64,000 bases of DNA from contig NC_087082.1 of the NCBI RefSeq assembly GCF_026151205.1, positions 15,595,365 through 15,659,364 of the forward strand. Reading direction: 5' to 3'. Under the pieces are notes generated by a model that saw nothing but the letters and a program-made list of their open reading frames with translations, made no database searches and had not been told where the DNA came from. Positions 36,801 through 50,397 of this stretch are shown here, piece after piece. Position numbers and translations under genes: made by a program. Within the stretch, counting starts at the first letter, position 1. The number at the start of each line of letters is the position of its first letter. The stretch is from Bolinopsis microptera (lineage: Eukaryota > Ctenophora > Tentaculata > Lobata > Bolinopsidae).

Positions 36801-39800
36801 TGAGCTTGTAATGACAGCTACACAATATGTGCAGTGGACAGCTTCACACTTCTACATTATATAAACTATTAACCATCAAAAATGTTTAAAGATGCTTTTA
36901 ATTGAGCGTCGTTCACTATAGATTTTAATGCCGGGAATGTTTGGAGCATGCATATTGCATAGTACTGCAAACGACTTATCCTAATTTCCTCCCCAGTTCC
37001 TCGGAGGGGGTATCAGTAGAGTTGCCCTACTCCAGGTCCTTATTTAAAACTATGGATGTAGAACAGAGGAATGTGGACTATGTGATAGCAGATCTGATGA
37101 AACCAGATGTGATGCCTGTAAGTAAAGAATGTTATTTTGAATGAATTATAAGTTTTTTTTTCTTTTTTACACGTATTTGATGGTGTTACCGACGCGATGG
37201 TGACCTAAATGTGCAATTAATTTTTGATTCCGGGTATTGTGATTAACTGAGGCTGCGTTCAGAGAGTAAGTGCTGAGAAGAAGCAGAAGATGATAAACAA
37301 TATTGTTGGAGATGAGGAGCCTCGTTCTGTTATGTCAATCTCCAGCTTGTAAGTTACTGCTAGTTTAACTCGTCGTGTTATTAATTTTAAAGTTGTTGCT
37401 TATTTTTAGCATGAATAATAGCAAAACATGTTTGGCAACGGTCCAATAGTACACAGCTCCCTCTCAGCAAGAGCAAATCTAAGATTCTTATTAACTTGCT
37501 GTGTATATCGTTAATAGAATAAATTAAACCGAGCGCTCGCAACATTAGGTTTTTTCGGATGATTTGATATTTAAATTTGTAATCATGCTCAGCTATAAAG
37601 TTATTATTTCAGGTATGAAGAAGCGAAGAATGCCGCAAAGTAAGCACTTAACATGGAAATTACATAGCATTATTCATTAATCTCTAGGTCATCCGCTAGG
37701 TCATCCTCTAGAGATTTAACACTCAAAGTAACCCTGTTGTTTAAATAACAAATTAACTTGCTAGAACGAAAGAAGACACAACTCTAAATCTAACCCCTCA
37801 TTCTAACCCCTCAATCTAACCCCTCGGCCCTCATTCTAACCCCTTAATCTAACCCCTCATTCTAACCCCTCAATCTAACCCCTCATTCTAACCCCTCATT
37901 CTAACCCCTCATTCTAACCCCTCAATATAACCCCTCTCTAACCCCTCAATCTAACCCCTCAATCTAACCCCTCAATCTAACCCCTCAATCTAACCCCTCA
38001 TTCTAACCCCTCATTCTAACCCCTCAATCTAACCCCTCATTCTAACCCCTCATTCTATCAGCGACAACACCGAGCTGATCTACACCAAGAAGGAAGGTCT
38101 AGCCTCCCTCCCAAAACAATCAGCTCCCCTTTACATCAGTGTGATGGAGGAGACCACCTCGCTAGCCCTACAATCTCTACAATACCTGAAGGAGCAGGAA
38201 CTGGTGTCTGGTGGTAATTACGACAGTGTTATCCAGGCTGCTGTCCGGTTCCATCGTCCTGATCTGGCGTGGGAGCTATATGTGGAGATGCGGGAGCAGG
38301 AGTTCCTTCCTTCTACTGATACTGTCACTGATCTTATATACAGGTGTGTGTTACTGTCACTGATCTTATATATACAGGTGTGTGTAACTGTCACTGATCT
38401 TATATACAGGAGTGTGTTACTGTCACTGATCTTATATTATACAGGTGTGTGTTACTGTCACTGATCTTATATACAGGAGTGTGTTACTGTCACTGATCTT
38501 ATATTATACAGGTGTGTGTTACTGTCACTGATCTTATATACAGGTGTGTGTTACTGTCACTGATCTTATATACAGGTGTGTGTTACTGTCACTGATCTTA
38601 TATACAGGTGTGTGTTACTGTCACTGATCTTATATACAGGTGTGTGTTACTGTCACTGATCTTATATACAGGTGTGTGTTACTGTCACTGATCTTATATA
38701 CAGGTGTGTGTTACTGTCACTGATCTTATATACAGGTGTGTGTTACTGTCACTGATCTTATATACAGGTGTGTGTTACTGTCACTGATCTTATATACAGG
38801 TGTGTGTTACTGTCACTGATCTTATATACAGGTGTGTGTTACTGTCACTGATCTTATATACAGGTGTGTGTTACTGTCACTGATCTTATATACAGGTGTG
38901 TGTTACTGTCACTGATCTTATATACAGGTGTGTGTTACTGTCACTGATCTTATATACAGGTGTGTGTTATTTTGGTTATATATTATAGATCAGATGGAGA
39001 AAAGTGGTTTCGAGGCATAGTTGTATTAAACGAATAAAACATGGCTTCGGATTATGATAAGCAGCTACAGTTGTAAAAGACAGGAATTTAGGAATTACCC
39101 ATTTTAGATTGTAAATTCCTCAGTGTGACACACAGCATGCCACCGGAGCAGTTTGTGAAGGAAGGAGCCCCTCACAGAATTAAAACAATATTGACTGATT
39201 TGACAGAAAATCCTACTACTAATATTACTGATGGTAAGGGGTGTGTTCTGTATTTATTCATTTTTGCTATTTTCGTCAAATTTTGTTGAATATCATTCTA
39301 TTTCTAAGACTTAATGTTGACCAAAATCAACAAATATCACTGACTTTTCTTTATATTTTGGTATATTGTTCCTGGTTGATTATTTTTGGGTAAATCATTT
39401 CGTTGCAAGATCATGTATTGCTTAATTGCATGTACTGTTCGTGTGGAACTGAAATGTGGTGAATGTAAGCTTACACATTTCCAATTCCAGAGATGTTCCT
39501 AAACCTATTTTATGGATACCATATGGTAGACTTCGTGAAAGAGGAATACGAAGAAACTGACGAAGAAGATCGCGGAGGTTTACTTTCGCTAGAAATATTT
39601 TGATAACGATAGCATTTGTGTTTTTGCTTCAAATTTATCATCAGCATTTCATTTCAAGGTCACTATTAAGAAACTAATGGTCCAATTGAGAACATCAACT
39701 AAGTAAACCACAGGAAAGTCATCGAAGGGGAAGACAGATCCAAAGAAAGTGGCCTACCAGGCTGTTCGAGATGGTATCCACAAATATAACTACCACATCC

Positions 39801-42800
39801 TAAACGAAATGAGGGAGTGTATGATAAATGGCAACTTTAAAATGAGGTCTGTTTACCAGTTTACCATTTCTTGGAAACCTTTTGATTTTACTTGAAAATC
39901 TTGTGATGTTTGAAAACACAATTTTTCAACTGGTCATAACTAATCGTTTGATTATTTTTCTAGAATTGTTTACCGCAGCGCCAATAATCATGAAACCTTG
40001 CTGTAGTAACTATATCTGATTTTTTTACTACGATATTGTTATCACCCGTACATTAGATAAGACCAAACAGATACCATCACTTATTTATTACTATGACCAG
40101 GTATTCAACGGGTTATAAGATTCTGGAAATGCACAATCTCACTGTTGGTGATCACCGTAAGCCATACATTACAGCTCACCTTAACCGTGCTATGCTGGAT
40201 CTCTACGATGATCGTCCGGACTTGTTTGTGAGGTAAGCAGTAAGAATCAGTTTTAGTATATACTTCTTGTGTGTGCTTATAGTGTGTTCTTCTGACACGT
40301 CATATTAAAGAACGATCCTACATTTTTTTAATCAGAATATCTGAGCAAATTCGAACCGTTTGTTTCTAGAATTAATTCAAGCATAATTATTGGCCATATC
40401 GGTGGTCGTTATGGGAAATTTTGAAGTAAACATGTTATCGCTTAAGCTACCTCATACAACATAATATATTTTTAATTATTTCTAACATATTTCTAATTAT
40501 ATAGTCTTTTTAATAAACTGATGGTTAGCAAGCTTACACTTATTGGGACTATCTTTTTGCAGGGATTTAGATCACGACAATTGTATCAATTTCGTGACGA
40601 AGCTAATTTATTATGCTAGACAAGGAACGGGAGGGTTTGACGTGGATGACTTTTACTCAAAACACCGAGAAGACCTCATTGCCATGAGTAGGACTTAGCT
40701 TCTTTTTGTGAATAAAATTGGATAGCTCGCACCCTCAGCCGAGTGGATTTTTAATTAAAACTGTAATTTGGAGAACATTCGTTAAGTTTAATCACATCAC
40801 ACCTAGAAAAATGTCAACATTTTCAGAAAAGTACGTCTCGCTCAACCCTGATAGTTTCAAAGCAAGCTGGAGTAAGTTGGAGAGTTACCTCTCGTTTGAT
40901 CTGAAAACAATGAAAGGACAGCCTCTCCCAGAGGGTTTGTTCAGAAGATTGGAAGATGTGAGACGAGTCAACATCATAGACTTCTACAATGACATGTACA
41001 AGGATGTGAGTTATGGTTAATAGTAGAAATAGAAGGATTTTGTTTAATAACTTGATAAATAGATTTCTGCGTTTATTACACACTCAGACATTAAACACAT
41101 ACCCAAAACCTTTACTCAATTAAAAGGCTCCAAAAATTGCTATAGAGATAGGAGAAGTGGTGTTAGTAATAATCCCACAAAATTCTTACAAAAACACAAT
41201 CCATAAATGAAAAATCTTAAGAGAAGCTCTTAACTGACCGGTCAAAGATATTAAATACAATAAGTATATTTCAAAATAACATTAAGATCCTATCATTATC
41301 TAGCTACTTGACACCTGTTTATATTAGCCCTATAATCTATATTAATTAGATTATAGGGCTGAAATTATAATTTCAGTATAAAGATTTATTGTATTCCGAA
41401 AATAAAATTAAACATTATTGTTTCAGAACCTAGAGCACCTGCCTGTGGGCGAAGCACGGAACATTATGGTTGAAGTGTTTAAGTTTGCCAGCTGTATAAA
41501 CCCTTATACTGCAGATGTGGACTACGTGCTGGGGGTCTACAAGATGATTATCCAGGGTATAGCTGATAAAATAACATTTTAGGGAGGTGGTCGAGGGAGG
41601 GGGGTCTACAAGATGATTATCCAGGGTATAGCTGATAAAATAACATTTTAGGGAGGTGGTCGAGGGAGGGGGGTCTACAAGATGATTATCCAGGGTATAG
41701 CTGATAAAATAACATTTTAGGGAGGTGGTCGAGGGAGGGGGGTCTACAAGATGATTTTCCAGGGTATAGCTTATAAAATAACATGTTAGGGAGGTGGTCG
41801 AGGGAGGGGGGTCTACAAGATGATAATCCAGGGTATAGTTGATAAAATAATATTTTAGGGTGGTGGTTGAGGGAGGGGGGTCTACAAGATGATTATCCAG
41901 GGTATAGTTGATAAAATAACATTTTAGGGAGGCGGTCGAGGGAGGGGGGTCTACAAGATGATTATCCAGGGTAAAGCTGATAAAATAACATTTTAGGGAG
42001 GTGGTCGAGAGAGGGGGGTCTACAAGATGATTATCCAGGGTATAGCTGATAAAATAACATTTTAGGGAGGTGGTCGAGGGAGGGGAGGGGGTCTACAAGA
42101 TGATTATCCAGGGTATAGTTGATAAAATAACATTTTAGGGAGGTGGTCGAGGGAGGGGGGTCTACAAGATGATTATCCAGGGTATAGCCGATAAAACAAC
42201 ATTTTAGGGAGGTGGTCGAGGGAGGGGGGTCTACAAGATGATTATCCAGGGTATAGTTGATAAAATAACATTTTAGGGAGGCTAGGTGGTCGAGGGAGGG
42301 GGGTCTACAAGATGATTATCCAGGGTATAGTTGATAAAATAACATTTTAGGGAGGTGGTCGAGGGAGGGGGGTCTACAAGATGATTATCCAGGGTATAGT
42401 TGATAAAATAACATTTTAGGGAGGTGGTCGAGGGAGGGGGGTCTACAAGATGATTATCCAGGGTATAGCTGATAAAATAACATTTTAGGGAGGTGGTCGA
42501 GGAAGGGGGGTCTACAAGATGATTATCCAGGGTATAGCTGATAAATTAACATTTTAGGGAGGTGGTCGAGGGAGGGGGTCTACAAGATGATTATCCAGGG
42601 TATAGCTGATAAAACAACATTTTAGGGAGGTGGTCGAGGGAGGGGGGTCTACAAGATGATTATCCAGGGTATAGTTGATAAAATAACATTTTAGGGAGGT
42701 GGTCGAGGGAGGGGGGTCTACAGGATGATTATCCAGGGTATAGCTGATAAAATAATATTTTAGGGAGGTGGTCGAGGAAGGCGGGTGGGTTTTCTAAGAT

Positions 42801-45800
42801 ATTAGGATGCATTACGAATACTGTAATTAATATGATCACAGAATCTTAATTTCAGAAAACATCAGAATATCAGAGGTATGCATCAAAGGCAACGCCGTCA
42901 ACAACGACAAAATCTGGACCGTTGCTCTATTCACTTTCCTAGAAAATTTCTTCAACCACTTCAACGCAAAGTACCTGATATTATTCTTCCTATCAGAGGA
43001 CAGAAGAGTTCCAGCCTCTTTACCTGGTTCAGGGGTAAGTAACTTCACAGCTAAGTAACACAGGACACGACATGACCATATAAGGGCACCACGTGTTAAA
43101 AAAAAACGATGACAGTAAGTGTGGGGAGGTGACGGTAATTGTCACTTAAGGGGGCCGGCGCGGGGGGGGGGGGGGGTCTTCATCAAAATTGTCACTTATA
43201 ATCTAGGTAGAAGGTTCGTAGAGAAGTATAACAGACGGCTTTGTTTGTAATTAAATGGAAAGTTTGATTAATATAAGTCAGAAAAGTTCATGGCAATCAA
43301 CAAACCGTGCAAAATGTTTTAGTCAGAGCCCAAATGATTTGTAAGAACACCAAGTCGCTCGTTTTAAAAGCTAATTATGAACGGTTAACATTTTTTACTA
43401 GCCGCATTGTTGTAATGGTCATATTCATCTTTTAAGATCATGAATACGATGTTGTTACATTGAAATGTAGAACATTTTCTCATCCTGATAAAAGCCTTTT
43501 CCATGTCGCTGTAAACGGGAAAACTACAAATTTTGCCCCAGAATGCTGAAGATAATTCTTAAAACAATTGAATTTTTGCATTTGATGCAATGAGGGCGTT
43601 TTGGCCACACCCTTTCCCAGAGGCTCGCGGTAATTCGATTTATTTTCATTTCCGACTACCCTTCGAGACATTTTTTTGCTTTCAGCTTTTCTCATCTTAT
43701 TTATTTCAGGATATTGAAATGATGCAGTCCAGAAAATTAACACTCTCTGAGGTAAAGATTTTAATCTTAACTGTTAAACTGTTAAAACAGTTCACAATTG
43801 ATATCTAATTATTTACCTTTCACTCTTTCACCATTTACCTTTTAACGGCTGATGTAGTAGTGTTTTGAATAAATGTTTTCTAAATTCTCAGAATAGTTAT
43901 GATTAGGCTCTAGTAATTCAGGGTACTTAGAGTGATTCAATTAATTTAGGTAATTTAGACGATTAAAACGATTATTAGAATTCACATAATAATGGCGATA
44001 ATCCTTTAAATTAGCTAGATATTATGTAATATTATTATTGTTATTACAAACTGGTTACCTTAACAACGACATATTTAGTCTACCTTAAATTTAATCAAAA
44101 ATGTTGACTAAATTTCTTCTTCTGTCTGGTTAACATTGTTCACATGTCCTTCTTTTGTTTGGTTAACATTGTTCACAGGTCCTTCTTCTGTCTGGTTAAC
44201 ATTGTTCACAGGTCCTTCTTCTGTCTGGTTAACATTGTTCACAGGTCCTTCTTCTGTCTGGTTAACATTGTTCACAGGTCCTTCTTCTGTCTGGTTAACA
44301 TTGTTCACAGGTCCTTCTTCTGTCTGGTTAACATTGTTCACAGGTCCTTCTTCTGTCTGGTTAACATTGTTCACAGGTCCTTCTTCTGTCTGGTTAACAT
44401 TGTTCACAGGTCCTTCTTCTGTCTGGTTAACATTGTTCACAGGTCCTTCTTCTGTCTGGTTAACATTGTTCACATGTCCTTCTTCTGTCTGGTTAACATT
44501 GTTCACAGGTCCTTCTTCTGTCTGGTTAACATTGTTCACAGGTCCTTCTTCTGTCTGGTTAACATTGTTCACAGGTCCTTCTTCTGTCTGGTTAACATTG
44601 TTCACAGGTCCTTCTTCTGTCTGGTTAACATTGTTCACAGGTCCTTCTGGATGATTGACATTGATTTGTGGTCTCCTAGTTTCTCTGTCTAATCTCAATA
44701 TCCTCCTGATATTTTCTCTCAGAGCAGGCATCCTCCAAATATAAAGGATAGGATTAGCAGCCGAGTTAGTGGCTATAAGCAGCATGCTGACCATGCTACG
44801 GTAGTACCCCTGCAGCCTATCAACTTGGTTACATTTCTCCCTGTTACCATGAAGCACGCAGTTTGTTCTTAAAATAATATTAACAACGTAGGGAACGTTG
44901 CAGACTTCGTAAACAAGAGAAAACAGTAAAATAGTTACTGTCGCCCTGTTTCTGGTTTTTTGTAGCTCTCTTTGTTGAAGATGGTGATTTGTTCTTGTCA
45001 GCAACCCTGCTGATATGACACAGCTTATAGCAACTACACACACTGGAACTATGAAGGTTACGCTGGTAGCTAGGTAACTAAAAAAGGGTGGAGCGTTTGT
45101 AGATGAGTCTGCATATAGTACACATCCGGGTAGCCACTTGAGCGTTATCGCTTGCTCAGAGATGCCTATTAGCGTGGCTAACATTGCAACTAAGTATGTT
45201 ACTACAGCTACAATCAGATATCTGACTTTTTGTTTTTTAAAGGGTCTGAACAGTGAAACTGTCCTAGTTACATTCAGGCATATAACGAGGAAGATACTGA
45301 GTGCAACTGTGATGTGCCACAAATACGCCCAAACGAAACAACCGTATTCGTTACCGAACAATATGCCTGGTTTTCTTTTTGACCAGAGCGATATTCCCAC
45401 AGGAAGTATTGACACGCTTATCACCATATCATTTGTCGTTATTATCATGTAGATAACACTGGAAATGTTCCTTGTTTTTGATTTGAAATAAAGGAAGCTG
45501 ACTATGTTTCCTAATGTTCCGATAAGGAAGTACGCACAACATAGTACAGACCCGTAGAACGCATCTGCTACCTGGTTGAAGTTCAGTTCGTAGAAAGAAT
45601 TCCAATCTGTTGCTGTCGAGTTATGATACTGCTCCATCCTGTCTAAAGTAAATGGTAAATTACGATTATCAAGATATTCAGTTTTTAAAAGAAGATAAAG
45701 AATGACGTGATAAAACCATCGAGCAGAATCTGCAGCACAAAATAGTGGTTGCTATTTCTCTTTTTGTTTCTTCGTCACTTTACAGTTTACCCCAGGTGGG

Positions 45801-48800
45801 AATTCCTTACAAGGTCATTGCTCTTCTTTGTCAGAGGCCTTGGTCATTTAACAAAATTTTCTCTCCTGCAATCGTAATATCACACAAATTTTGTTTGCTA
45901 GCAGCTGTGTTCCCTACAATTTTTCATTGTAAAGTATTTATGGGTTCCGTTTTTTACGATCTGCGAACAATTATTGTTTACAGTATAGTATCATTTCTCC
46001 ATCAGAGCTCTCTAATAGGACCAACAAACTCCAAGTTTGTCATGACTGTAGATCGCAAAAGCTCTAACAGCTGTTATTAATTATATTTAGAACACGTACA
46101 ACTTTTCTAAGCCACACGTGTGTTTTGCGTACTGCACATTATGTGTACTGCACGTGCGTTATACGTACTCCACATGTGCGTTATGCGTACTGCACGTGCG
46201 TTATACGTACTGCACATGTGCGTTATGCGTACTGCACAATTATACGAGTACCATTAAAACTTGATAAATAATATCGTATTGTTACACTCAAATTCCGTGT
46301 AAAATCATTATTCTTCAAGCTCGTTCAACTTAATATGCTAGAATAAACTAGAATAAACTAGAATAAACTAGAATATACTAGAATAATCTAGAATATACTA
46401 GAATATACTAGAATATACTATACTAGAATATACTAAAATATACTAGAATATACTAGAATACACTAGAATACACTAGAATATAATACTAGTTAAATATTGT
46501 TGTTGAATATATGTATAATATATTATTTTCATTGTCTTGTTTTCAGACGAATATTAGAGACGTAGTAAACTTGACAACCAGCGCTTTAACACATCTCTTA
46601 GAACACGAAGGTACATTGTTTTGTGTTTTATTAATGCTTTATTCCTTTTGATTCTTTATGTAGCGGGCCGGGTGGTGTGTACTAAAACTGGGTAGTTAAT
46701 AAGTTGTTAATAATAACTCGTTTTGATCCTTACGTAACGGGCTTGAGAAATGTAAGTATAGTACTATATTTAATAGTATAAAGTATATAATTAATGTATA
46801 AAGCTGGTAATCCCAGGGGTACCAACTACAATCATGGTATATGTTCTGATCAAGTTCACGCTACTGTCCGGAGCATACGAGCAAGCTTGGAAACTCCTAG
46901 ACATTTACAACACTTATAGTGAGTTGTGGCTATCAAATTATAATAATTGTGATTAATATATTTTTTTTTTTTTTTGTTCAGGGAGCAGGCTTGCCACATA
47001 GGTCCAGGAGTACCGAACGTTTAGGCAGGGTGCTAGGTTATGGAACACACTCAACTAGGTAGTAGGTAGTCTGAGAGTCCGAAAATCTCCAAAAGGAGAT
47101 GTCATCAGAGTGTGATCCACTGCCTGACTAACCTGTGGGTAGAGTTCATTAGACTCTATAATGATGACAGGTAGTATCTTCTGTATGTTGCTGAGATCCA
47201 GTGTCCATGGTACCTATTTTTGAATTAGTTGGAAGAAGGATAATCGATAATATTGAAACCACTTTCTGCAAATTACACTGATAACTGAAATAAAAATTTA
47301 AAAACCAATAATAAATATAAGGATAAATACCTTGACTGAAATAGTGAATGTCTCTGAAGAAGGAGAGACGATAAAGCATGATACAACACGGTATGTTGAA
47401 ATAAAGCCTGTCTCTGAAGAAGGAGAGACGATAAAGCATGATATGACACGGTATGTTGAAAGAAAGCCTGTGTCTGATGAAGGAGACACGATAAAGCATG
47501 ATACGACACGGTATGTTGAAAGAAAGCCTGTCTCTGAAGAAGGAGAGACGATAAAGCATGATGCGACACGATATGTTGAAATAAAGCCTGTCTCTGAGGA
47601 AGGAGAGACGATAAAGCATGATACGACACGGTATATAGAAAGAAAGCCTGTCTCTGAAGAGGGAGAGACGATAGAGCATGATACGACACGGTATGTTCAA
47701 AGAAAGCCTGTGTCTGATGAAGGAGACACGATAAAGCATGATACGACACGGTATGTTGAAAGAAAGCCTGTCTCTGAAGAAGGAGAGACGATAAAGCATG
47801 ATGCGACACGATATGTCGAAATTAAGCCTGTCTCTGAGGAAGGAGAGACGATAAAGCACGAAACGACACGGTATGTTGAAATAAAGCCTGTCTCTAAAGA
47901 AGGAGAGACGATAAAGCATGAAACGACACGGTATGTTGAAATAAAGCCTGTCTCTGAAGAAGGAGAGACGATAAAGTATATTACGACACGGTATGCTGAA
48001 ATAAAGCCTGTCTCTGAAGAAGGAGAGACGATAAAGCATGATACGACACGGTATGTTGAAAGAAAGCCTGTGTCTGATGAAGGAGACACGATAAAGCATG
48101 ATACGACACGGTATGTTGAAAGAAAACCTGTCTCTGAAGAAGGAGAGACGATAAAGCATGATGCGACACGATATGTTGAAAGAAAGCCAGTCTCTGAAGA
48201 AGGAGAGACGATAAATCATGATACGACACGGTATGTTGAAAGAAAGCCTGTGTCTTATGAAGGAGACACGATAAAAACGACAAACGATACGTTATGCTGG
48301 AAATATGGAAATCTCTGAAGATTAAACAAATGGCAAGAAAAATACTATAAAAGACCCATCGCAGGATCTGGTGCTGGCCAGCCTGTGAACGCACAAAATA
48401 TCTGCACTGTGCAGAAAAACTAGAAATAACCGAGGAACTAAGGCGATGTAGCGCCGAAACAAGTGAAACATTCCCAGATGGGGAGAAGGAACCATCAACT
48501 CAGTGTGCGAGACCAAGAGATAAACAAATACTTAACAGTAACACAAATAAATGTGCAGTTCAAAATACTGTTATGCTAACTGTAAGCGTAAAAAGTATGG
48601 GGAGAAGTAATGAAAATGGGAGTGATAAAGTCACATCCAAAGAGTTAGTGAAGAAGGTGTTTACAAACCTTGACCAGAAGTGTCTAATGAAGTAAGTCAG
48701 ACAAGCAAACGCTTCCTTAAATGATGATTTAAGTCGTCTCTATCCCAGAAATTATGAATGATGACCCAGTGTAAAAGTGCAGAAATCGGCCGAAAATAAC

Positions 48801-50397
48801 AAAGACTACAAACAGTTAAAAAGTGACAGGATTCAAACACAAGGAAAATTAATAACATAAAGCGTAATAAGGAATATCTCCAAAAGGAGTTTTCTTAGAG
48901 GGTGAGAGGTTCTTTAATGAGACCTAATGATTAAATGAGACCCACTAAAGGTACTAAATTAACCGGACTGCTAGCGAGGAATCGAGAGTAGGAATAAAAT
49001 AAAAGCGGAATAAGTTCTAAGATAACGAAAAACTGGTACAGACAGCTAAAGTCCTAACACGGAGTCTAGGAAAAACCTGTGAACCAAATAAGTAGAATGG
49101 CACCCGAGCATGAAGTGTTAAAATATATACCGTTCAAGAATGCCTGCGGAGGCATCACTCCTTCATAATGCACGTGTTAGAAAATTTATTTATTAAAAGA
49201 TAAAAAGAATAAAGCTACAAAATTAACGAAGCGGTGAAAATCTTAGAGGGTGAGAGGTTCTTTAATGAGACCTAATGATTAAATGAGACCCACTAAAGGT
49301 ACTAAATTAACCGGACTGCTAGCGAGGAATCGAGAGTAGGAATAAAATAAAAGCGGAATAAGTTCTAAGATAACGAAAAACTGGTACAGACAGCTAAAGT
49401 CCTAACACGGAGTCTAGGAAAAACCTGTGAACCAAATAAGTAGAATGATTGTGATTAATAAATCAGTAATTAATATAATATATAGTTTAATCATAAGATT
49501 TAATTATAGAATTTAATGATGATCCATGTGCAGTGTGCACACTGCATAGTGCAGCTAAAATGGGGTAGATACAAAGAAAAACAAATATTTGCTGCTCAGC
49601 AATCTTACTTGTTTCTAATTGACAATCTAACTCATCTCATAAGTGAATCAATATATTATTAAAGTTTCAAAATAATTTGTTAATAATATTTGCAGTTTGT
49701 TAACATATAATCACGTGTTTCAGATATACCGCTGGATGATAACCCGCTGCTAAATTACATCGAACTTACAACTAACTGGGAGTCAGATGGTAAATTATTT
49801 AGTTAGATTGTTATTTCACTTAAATATAATGCTGAGATAATTGATTCATCAGCTTAGTCGTTTGTTTGACTAATTAACTACACTTAAATGTGTCTCTTGG
49901 AGTAACGTGAGTTTGAACTGGTATATTTTTCAGAGTGCCATTTACCTCGACCTTCGTAGGAGTCATATTTACCTCTTTGTGTTCCTTATTCTACCACGTG
50001 ACTTGTACCACGTGACTTGTACCACGTGACTTGTACCACGTGACTTTTACCACGTGACTTGTACCACGTGACTTGTACCACGTGACTTGTACCACGTGAC
50101 TTGTACCACGTGACTTGTACCACGTGACTTGTACCACGTGACTTGTACCACGTGACTTGTATCACGTGACTTGTACCACGTGACTTGTATCACGTGACTT
50201 GTACCACGTGACTTGTACCACGTGACTTGTACCACGTGACTTGTACCACGTGAATTGTACCACGTGAATTGTACCACGTGACTTGTATCATGTGACTTTG
50301 TGTTTCAGGTGCAAGTTATCTGGAGAGCATTGCAGAGCCGCTTCAAAGTTCAGTGCGGGGACGGATAGAAAAAATGGAGCGAGAAAAGAAAGAGTGA
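33888..50397 (+). CDS. PTCD3: PTCD3-like mitochondrial pentatricopeptide repeat protein (mS39), 21 exons
   Basis: Exons: 33888-34060, 34198-34297, 34521-34838, 36729-36781, 36997-37117, 37263-37348, 37613-37639, 38062-38343, 39124-39233, 39491-39577, 39714-39846, 40101-40232, 40563-40687, 40827-41005, 41427-41556, 42856-43034, 43710-43751, 46547-46610, 46817-46918, 49724-49789, 50309-50397. All phases agree, giving about 865 residues. The N-terminal block (RAVLEALSRANQNA ... AGYELAEQFIMKFPESF ... KVEKAKQMFEEIL) follows human PTCD3 closely, and near the C-terminus VLIKFTLLSGAYEQAWKLL matches its AWKMLGLF block. The PPR-type helices (AAVRFHRPDLAWELYVEM) lie in exon 8. PTCD3 binds RNA in the small mitoribosomal subunit. 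The protein is longer than the human one (about 690 residues), mostly in the middle. The stop TGA (50395) overlaps a possible donor GTGAGT, so a further exon is possible. Confidence 0.85.
34855..36446. mobile_element. Mariner-type element with long inverted repeats, in PTCD3-like intron 3
   Basis: The ends CAGGGTGGCCCATAAGTGAC and the reverse complement are flanked by TA/TATA, the Tc1/mariner target. The inverted repeats are unusually long, about 365 bp on the left and 385 bp on the right; the right arm has an extra block of about 20 bp near 36085. Between them is a degenerate transposase. Arm identity is very high, so it inserted or was homogenised recently. Confidence 0.9.
35430..35955 (+). 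pseudogene. Decayed mariner-family transposase
   Basis: In one frame (35654-35881) the sequence reads LDISRTTLQRIL, then RITKKHKLLDRDFQSRIDFA, then EIWYSDEAHCHINGYVN, the helix-turn-helix end and second-Asp region of a DD(E/D) mariner-like transposase. It is broken by an in-frame TAG at 35879, and the upstream part (RLFVYLKKENGEFYPQIK) is in another frame. No initiator Met and no complete catalytic triad. The element cannot move itself. Confidence 0.8.
37790..38056. repeat. 13-bp minisatellite (CTAACCCCTCATT) ending at the exon 8 acceptor
   Basis: About 19 units alternating CTAACCCCTCATT and CTAACCCCTCAAT, with a few shortened ones, end at CTATCAG, the acceptor of exon 8 of the PTCD3-like gene. 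The array supplies the pyrimidine-rich tract of that splice site. Confidence 0.85.
38321..38968. repeat. 32-bp minisatellite carrying the exon 8 end and its 5' splice site
   Basis: About 20 units of ACTGTCACTGATCTTATATACAG plus GTGTGTGTT. The first 23 bases of the first unit are the last coding bases of exon 8 and the next bases are its donor site. Later units repeat both. Some units are 33-34 bp (TATATATA or TATATTATA) or have GAGTGTG. Confidence 0.93.
41531..42790. repeat. 69-bp minisatellite carrying the exon 15 end and its 5' splice site
   Basis: About 18 units of GGGGTCTACAAGATGATTATCCAG, then GGTATAGCTGATAAAATAAC and ATTTTAGGGAGGTGGTCGAGG. The first part is the end of exon 15 (GVYKMIIQ) and GGTATAG is its donor. 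Period 69 keeps the frame, and every unit has an in-frame TAG (in TTTTAG). Small indels (for example GAGGGGAGGGGG at 42079) vary a few units. Confidence 0.92.
43147..43190. repeat. Terminal fragment of the G/C-run palindromic element
   Basis: TTAAGGGGGCCGGCGCGG followed by a G run and GTCTTCATCAAAATT is the reverse complement of the right end of the element at 8879-9713. It lies in intron 16 of the PTCD3-like gene. Confidence 0.65.
44108..45637 (-). CDS. Class A-like GPCR with sixteen 11-residue C-terminal tail repeats, nested in a PTCD3-like intron
   Basis: Intronless, 509 residues, on the opposite strand inside intron 17 of the PTCD3-like gene. Seven hydrophobic segments: TM1 with GTLGN, TM2 with TTNDMV, TM3 after C (YGCFVWAY), TM4, an extracellular loop Cys (PGCVLY), TM5 with a Pro, TM6, and TM7 with NPILY. 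The DRY motif is replaced by TRT (NVTRTVSL) and the TM6 CWxP by CNVP, so it is a divergent class A receptor; its ligand cannot be predicted. After helix 8 the tail holds sixteen copies of VNNVNQTEEGP (33 bp each; 44111-44650), nearly identical at DNA level. The N-terminus has an NST glycosylation site. An acceptor-like TTTAG lies 5 nt before the ATG. Confidence 0.88.
   Translation of the reverse strand: MEQYHNSTATDWNSFYELNFNQVADAFYGSVLCCAYFLIGTLGNIVSFLYFKSKTRNISSVIYMIITTNDMVISVSILPVGISLWSKRKPGILFGNEYGCFVWAYLWHITVALSIFLVICLNVTRTVSLFRPFKKQKVRYLIVAVVTYLVAMLATLIGISEQAITLKWLPGCVLYADSSTNAPPFFSYLATSVTFIVPVCVVAISCVISAGLLTRTNHHLQQRELQKTRNRATVTILLFSLVYEVCNVPYVVNIILRTNCVLHGNREKCNQVDRLQGYYRSMVSMLLIATNSAANPILYIWRMPALRENIRRILRLDRETRRPQINVNHPEGPVNNVNQTEEGPVNNVNQTEEGPVNNVNQTEEGPVNNVNQTEEGPVNNVNQTEEGHVNNVNQTEEGPVNNVNQTEEGPVNNVNQTEEGPVNNVNQTEEGPVNNVNQTEEGPVNNVNQTEEGPVNNVNQTEEGPVNNVNQTEEGPVNNVNQTEEGPVNNVNQTKEGHVNNVNQTEEEI
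46075..46245. repeat. Irregular tandem repeat of GCGTTATGCGTACTGCAC type
   Basis: Units containing TGCGTTATxCGTACTGCAC(ATG/G)TG repeat about six times with variants. It lies in intron 17 of the PTCD3-like gene, upstream of the nested GPCR start. Confidence 0.65.
46338..46490. repeat. AT-rich 10-bp repeat (ACTAGAATAT)
   Basis: About 14 units of ACTAGAATA(A/T) with variants, about 60 bp before exon 18 of the PTCD3-like gene. Confidence 0.75.
46959..49447 (-). mobile_element. SVA-like composite retroposon: 5' direct repeats, 60-bp VNTR, poly(A), 13-bp TSD
   Basis: The insertion lies in intron 19 of the PTCD3-like gene and is flanked by a 13-bp target duplication ATTGTGATTAATA (46946-46958 and 49448-49460). 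Read on the minus strand it starts with two apparently identical 207-bp direct repeats (49447-49241 and 49099-48893), followed by about 590 bp of unique sequence, sixteen 60-bp units (48300-47341), about 360 bp of unique 3' sequence, and an A15 tail (the T run at 46961-46975). The hairpin TCTCCAAAAGGAGA occurs at 47088-47101 and again (as TCTCCAAAAGGAG) near 48876-48888. TSD plus poly(A) indicate target-primed retrotransposition. No reverse transcriptase or gag frame is present, so it needs help from another element. Confidence 0.72.
47341..48300. repeat. VNTR of sixteen exact 60-bp units, open in several frames
   Basis: Unit period is exactly 60 bp. A plus-strand frame (from about 47332 to 48318) would read EEGETIKHDTTRYVERKPVS repeatedly, and minus frames are open too, which is expected for a repeat whose unit is divisible by three. 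Two unit types alternate in a higher-order order: GTCTC...GAGAC and GTGTC...GACAC, always matched within the unit. I treat it as part of the retroposon, not as a gene. Confidence 0.85.
49993..50297. repeat. 14-bp E-box minisatellite ending just before the exon 21 acceptor
   Basis: About 21 copies of ACCACGTGACTTGT, a few with ATCACGTG or GAATTGT. Each has the CACGTG core recognised by bHLH-ZIP factors (USF, MYC/MAX, TFEB type). The array ends about 10 nt from the acceptor of the last PTCD3-like exon. Confidence 0.9.

Follow-up and report, generated by a model that had tools for sequence, protein, structure and literature searches.

A VNTR-containing composite retroposon family in the ctenophore Bolinopsis microptera, apparently combining parts of two LINEs

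Introduction

VNTR composites (SVA, LAVA, PVA and FVA) are described as hominoid-specific in the excerpt of PMC4432496 used here; with this single known case, the needed and the accidental features of such elements are hard to tell apart. A second, unrelated case asks whether an internal VNTR and a make-up from two sources are convergent solutions for LINE parasites. The element of Bolinopsis microptera analyzed in this study is, like the hominoid families, a non-coding, non-autonomous composite with a central VNTR that varies between copies, an A-tail and target duplications, and it is apparently moved by a LINE in trans; unlike in the hominoid families, its 5' part corresponds to a LINE 5' UTR with monomers and its 3' end to a LINE 3' UTR, and an RNase H-bearing LINE, rather than the L1 of SVA, seems to serve as its helper. 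To our knowledge, a hexamer, an Alu-like part, a SINE-R or another primate part is not to be expected in a ctenophore composite. The initial annotation had proposed a convergent counterpart of SVA in an early-branching animal: the host, a ctenophore, agrees with this, the likeness extends to the central variable VNTR and to parts from two LINEs, nothing points to shared descent (the 5' and 3' parts match LINEs of the ctenophore genome), and the case looks independent because VNTR composites are described as hominoid-specific (PMC4432496, same excerpt). Among the matches listed in the open-licence literature for a non-primate VNTR composite, a ctenophore retroposon or LINE monomers there was no such element, which leaves its absence from print unproved.

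Two further systems are comparable in parts. According to an excerpt of PMC10620060, tandem promoter-region monomers of ~200 bp, varying in number, precede a non-monomeric region in the mouse L1 5' UTR. The 207-bp repeats of the ctenophore element, being parts of LINE 5'-UTR monomers, are closer to these than to any part of SVA; unlike in mouse L1, the monomer measures ~276-356 bp (varying by family), belongs to an RNase H-bearing LINE and is also present in non-coding elements. Mouse L1 is the best-known carrier of LINE 5'-UTR monomers; here they occur in a ctenophore LINE and in its non-coding relatives. SINEs and LINE deletion derivatives share their 3' end with a LINE, presumably for recognition by the reverse transcriptase of that LINE. 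The ctenophore composite likewise has its 3' end in common with a LINE, and differs from them in its length of ~2.5 kb, in ends that match two different LINEs and in the lack of a tRNA gene or Rfam match.

Results and Discussion

Architecture of the element in the window

The window, i.e. the whole stretch of 64,000 nucleotides analyzed, is located at 15.6 Mb of a 20.8-Mb contig. Direct reading places the element on the minus strand at 46959-49447 (2,489 bp), between identical 13-bp copies of the target duplication ATTGTGATTAATA (46946-46958 and 49448-49460); two extra bases separate the 3' duplication copy from the T15 tract (46961-46975). In sense orientation, 207 bp, 141 bp and again 207 bp precede a unique region of ~600 bp; then come the array of sixteen 60-bp units, a second unique region of ~360 bp and the A15 tail, so that the initial observation of a 2.49-kb insertion with a 13-bp duplication and an A15 tail is confirmed. 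The features are, in element sense:

49448-49460, no strand: target-site duplication, 5' copy; 13 bp identical at both ends
49241-49447, minus: monomer part 1 (207 bp), element start (CATTCT.CTTATTTGG); nine composites and L026 begin within ~2 nt
49100-49240, minus: spacer (141 bp) completing the 348-bp monomer; tandem arrays of spacer plus 207 bp elsewhere in the genome
48893-49099, minus: monomer part 1 again (207 bp); 100% identity to the copy at 49241-49447
48670-48889, minus: midA, unique 5' segment in common with the LINE-A 5' UTR and a LINE-A-like non-coding family; sequence matches
48290-48669, minus: midB, unique segment, of which the LINE-A 5' UTR contains the first ~143 bp; matches to L049 and L026
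47337-48275, minus: 60-bp VNTR, in which the seed motif marks 16 units, a 6-bp stem being possible in most; TRF and seed motif
47268-47336, minus: linker (~70 bp) from the VNTR to the LINE-B-derived tail; LINE-B matches start at tail position 73
46976-47267, minus: 3' segment in common with the LINE-B 3' UTR, ending CTCCCTGAAC; matches to L031, L033 and L034
46961-46975, minus: poly(A) tail, A15 on the sense strand; direct reading
46946-46958, no strand: target-site duplication, 3' copy; 13 bp identical at both ends

The sixteen VNTR units reported initially were recovered as 16 seed-motif matches at a spacing of exactly 60 bp (15.4 copies at 47349-48275 by TRF). No RT or gag frame was present among the open reading frames of the element, as had been stated before; the longest frames (356 and 328 aa) both cross the VNTR, since the unit length is a multiple of three, and a coding role was dropped in favor of a by-product of the 60-bp unit. 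A Pol III SINE was rejected as well: the window element contained neither a tRNA gene nor an Rfam family at E 1 or better.

A dispersed family with two subfamilies

Searches covered the 264.65-Mb assembly (232 contigs) and yielded at least 40 matches for the tail (40 of 204 candidates scored), at least 245 for the monomer, many of them in arrays (37 of 174), at least 40 for the unique middle, mostly a LINE-A-like family with midA only (40 of 118), and at least 154 for the VNTR (40 of 53); all four counts are lower bounds. Based on these matches and on 58 stretches of genome taken for the family analysis, the window element belongs to a dispersed family whose members have the 207-bp repeats and the 3' end in common.

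Two composite subfamilies were distinguished, labeled S1 and S2 for this study only. S1 (the window element, L005-L007, L009, L013 and L015; the latter two 5'-truncated) consists of monomer, midA, midB, VNTR and tail, whereas S2 (L011, L012, L018, L019, L050, L053-L055 and L057) comprises at least one monomer of ~335 bp, midA cut at ~208 bp, VNTR and tail. L008 and L020 possess midB and lack the tail. VNTR length, proposed initially for comparison between copies, varies from 5.3 to 19.8 units in seven tail-bearing S1 copies and from 13.7 to 16.2 units in S2 and reaches ~53 units in L016; lower numbers occur in truncated or partial copies (L051, L052, L020, L037, L039), and L003/L004 have three. 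The central VNTR thus differs between copies and the source elements differ at the two ends (LINE-A 5', LINE-B 3'), as in the VNTR-composite design.

Two side observations concern outlying sequences: another midB piece (94%) lies at C13:4031177, and the L003/L004 family shows diverged monomers (~71%), its three VNTR units (88%) and, by eye, a stretch like antisense RT; L003 and L004 are also alike upstream of the monomers, and ~ten further places were present among the VNTR matches.

The 5' part matches the 5' UTR of LINE-A

According to tandem arrays elsewhere in the genome, the 207-bp repeats (48893-49099 and 49241-49447; 100% identity, offset 348 bp) mark where the first and the second 348-bp monomer (207 + 141 bp) begin. 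Of the initial description as two direct repeats, their presence and identity hold; they are not separate features, together with the spacer representing 1.6 copies of a LINE monomer. MidA was 88.6% identical to L049, 81.8% to L026 and 95-96% to L001/L002/L042, and positions 1-143 of midB were 82-84% identical to L049/L026; midB 140-380 had no match in the 20 loci compared. Both L049 and L026 are LINE-A copies: L049 has a frame of 1286 aa, its protein being 96-98% identical to the 936- and 374-aa frames of L026, which hold endonuclease, RT and RNase H domains. Upstream of the LINE-A frame, midA and midB 1-143 are present in both copies (82-89%); the monomer precedes the frame in L026 only, as L049 starts inside midA. 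L026 is flanked by a 13-bp duplication (ACTTGAAAAAATT) and, compared with L049, carries an insertion of ~0.9 kb in the 3' UTR. The LINE-A 3' UTR ends GGGTTCTATAAACAAAC and differs from the composite tail.

The nine composites with a common start (window, L005, L006, L007, L009, L012, L018, L019 and L053) begin within ~2 nt of one monomer base, which is also the first base of L026; the start of L056 is ~5 nt further in, and the remaining composites with both ends are truncated elsewhere. A non-coding family (L001, L002, L021-L024, L028 and L042) combines LINE-A 5' UTR monomers or midA with the LINE-A 3' UTR, mostly ends (AAAC)n and looks like a plain deletion derivative of LINE-A.

Separate from this, the 13-bp duplication ACTTGAAAAAATT of L026 recurs between its monomers 1 and 2 (L026 193-440); a joint duplication of monomer and flank, upon insertion or later, may be responsible and would hint, from this one case, at how monomer arrays start. 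A tandem array was also seen in a composite of ~12.9 kb (L056/L057, G000:C6:12235348-12248206), in which 337-bp monomers (at least 26 matches) lie upstream of VNTR and tail; the middle is known only from the monomer matches listed (gap ~2.5 kb). This composite is flanked by TATACCCGGGATG and was apparently retroposed as a single unit. Two candidate associations were excluded as probably chance neighbors: a lone monomer plus 76 bp of midA that a 1240-aa LINE frame follows at a distance of 1.5 kb (L025), and a monomer directly beside a Penelope-like frame with a GIY-YIG-like part by eye (L030 199-1273).

The 3' end matches the 3' UTR of LINE-B

From position 73 onward (73-372), the tail matches the LINE-B 3' UTR in L031-L034 at 91-93% identity (L031, ~92.6-92.8%; L033, 90.6%; L034, 91.0%), so that a LINE with the same 3' end, proposed initially as the element to be sought, was found. 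In L031, endonuclease, RT and RNase H domains are encoded in two frames (529 and 616 aa); this copy is 5'-truncated and has its frame broken by a stop; L032 duplicates L031 and shares its downstream flank, and L033 has a 14-bp duplication. L1 is not known to carry RNase H. The match of the composite 3' end to an RNase H-bearing LINE would argue against L1 as the putative mobilizing element; LINE-B is presumably I-like rather than L1-like, given its RNase H domain. Among the 82 of 4325 candidate protein matches scored, none represented a LINE-B copy whose full-length frame is open, which counts against the model proposed here: six of the 82 were at least 78% identical to the LINE-B protein (query included, two from one copy), and none of these six had a frame over 529 aa. 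A LINE-B 5' UTR was not found in these copies, all of them truncated or broken.

Taken as direct observations, the modular make-up, shared ends, A-tails, target duplications and variable repeats very probably reflect a non-autonomous non-LTR composite of a LINE-A 5' part, a VNTR and a LINE-B 3' end that would be mobilized in trans by LINE-B-type machinery. An improbable alternative to a chimera of two LINEs is that a single LINE, itself bearing monomers, VNTR and LINE-B 3' UTR, gave rise to the element by internal deletion. LINE-A provides a precedent in the L001/L002/L042 type (monomers, midA and LINE-A 3' UTR), and as no LINE-B copy with a 5' end was seen, LINE-B may carry any 5' UTR; against this, the 5' part of the composite matches LINE-A, the 3' UTR of which differs, and the LINE-A and LINE-B proteins are merely 28% (endonuclease and RT start) and 33% (rest) identical.

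For the two-LINE composite, the tail tree (290 columns; 29 rows, 24 of them different) separated five LINE-B rows from S1 plus S2 with a support of 87/88 and in 99% of 200 bootstrap trees, a bootstrap that is not settled and leaves eight of the 29 rows in no group. The LINE-B side also holds L016, with its ~53 VNTR units, and the fragments L037 and L038; no clean split between S1 and S2 tails emerged (3 and 2 changes), and the inner branches were mostly weak. The simplest reading is a fusion that took place once, which is unproved because L016, L037 and L038 group with the LINE-B tails.

Marks of retroposition

The 3' end was examined in a pool of 30 loci made up of composites, tail fragments and LINE-B (L031 and L032 being duplicates of each other); in 27 of them an A-tract directly follows CTCCCTGAAC, and the end base is identical in LINE-B and composites. 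The exceptions are L013 (one base different), L037 (beginning ACA7) and L036 (without 3' end); the A-tract of L012 is short (AAACAAA). Flank repeats of 10-16 bp were found in 14 of the 19 composites with both ends available: 13 bp in the window, 14 in L005, 12 in L006, 16 in L007, 15 in L012, 10 in L014, 12 in L015, 10 in L018, 12 in L019, 12 in L051, 11 in L052, 14 in L053, 15 in L055 and 13 in L056/L057. Poly(A) and target duplications thus recur in other copies, as the initial annotation had proposed to check. The five composites without duplication (L009, L010, L011, L013 and L016) share only 4-5 bp and are counted against the retroposition model. L050 and L054 (5' end beyond the stretch), L008 and L020 (no tail) and the tail fragments L037, L038 and L039 (type uncertain) were left out of this test.

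In the control, 342 mismatched 5'/3' flank pairs of the 19 copies shared 10 bp in two cases, 9 bp in one and at most 8 bp in the rest. This test replaces a smaller one (11 copies, 110 mismatched pairs, longest shared stretch 8 bp), in comparison with which its control is slightly less clean owing to the two pairs at 10 bp. The target duplication in the window is therefore not due to chance (13 bp versus at most 10 bp in the 342 mismatched pairs). In four 5'-truncated copies, the duplication ran into or fell short of the start of the alignment by 1-8 nt (L014, +1; L051, +8; L052, with a locally repetitive flank, -3; L055, +7); in L018, the repeat stops 6 nt before the monomer start. Apart from L006/L020, L054/L057 and one 26-bp match, the flanks compared (23 at 5' ends, 25 at 3' ends) were unrelated. 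As a separate observation, ~300 bp are in common between the 5' flanks of L006/L020 (89.5%) and the 3' flanks of L054/L057 (92%), either by duplication of the loci or by insertion into the same repeat.

With an A-rich end after a fixed terminus, duplications at independent sites and a LINE-shared 3' end in the absence of an own RT, the family has the features of a non-autonomous non-LTR retroposon. A one-off retrocopy of a repeat-containing host transcript, with which the lack of a coding frame outside the VNTR would agree, is refuted by the copy number and of negligible probability, as many copies occupy unrelated sites with their own target duplications and both ends are common to LINEs. Spread of the tandem-repeat block at the DNA level (segmental duplication or satellite seeding), for which the long monomer arrays on C23, C154 and C10 and the common flanks of L006/L020 and L054/L057 might speak, was dropped as scarcely credible: the target duplications contradict it, the fixed 3' end is followed by an A-tract and the flanks are otherwise unrelated.

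Proposed mobilization and the role of the VNTR

For the LINE-B-mobilized composite, the following course is proposed. RNA polymerase II would start at the fixed base of the LINE-A-type monomer, giving a transcript from CATTCTGCTTATTTGG to CTCCCTGAAC-poly(A). A LINE-B-type endonuclease/reverse transcriptase would recognize the LINE-B 3' end of this transcript and, through target-primed reverse transcription, insert a copy of it elsewhere in the genome. The fusion might have arisen, most simply once, via RNA template switching or read-through between adjacent insertions; the excerpt of PMC13174262 used here describes LINE-1 chimeras that are broadly similar in kind. Slippage or unequal exchange would then have shifted the numbers of monomers and VNTR units.

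The VNTR unit contains an inverted repeat, GTCTCT-CCTTCTTC-AGAGAC. Its stem was paired in 96% of cells across 135 distinct units, compared with at most 92.7% in 500 shuffles and 20-66% when the stem partners were slid by 1-3 columns. The main double change in the stem (C-G to G-C) was present in 18 of the 135 units and accompanied by a loop change in 17; owing to this linkage, it probably represents one inherited event. Four other double changes were discounted, all coming from one misregistered unit of L020. Selection on the hairpin is in consequence suggestive only. It is conceivable, if rather doubtful, that VNTR composites evolved independently in ctenophores in such a way that an RNA combining one LINE's monomeric promoter with the 3' recognition end of a second LINE evades the control of one parent and parasitizes the other, the VNTR of this RNA being under selection for protein binding or packaging.

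Surroundings of the element in the window

Further tandem arrays are located near the element at 37789-38057 (13 bp x 21), 38320-38969 (32 bp x 20), 41531-42786 (69 bp x 18), 44116-44648 (33 bp x 16) and 49992-50298 (14 bp x 22). Possible plus-strand exons flank it at 46549-46609 and 49722-49790, with TTTCAG and GGTA-like borders recognized by eye; the element may, by the same visual inspection, lie antisense within an intron of a plus-strand gene.
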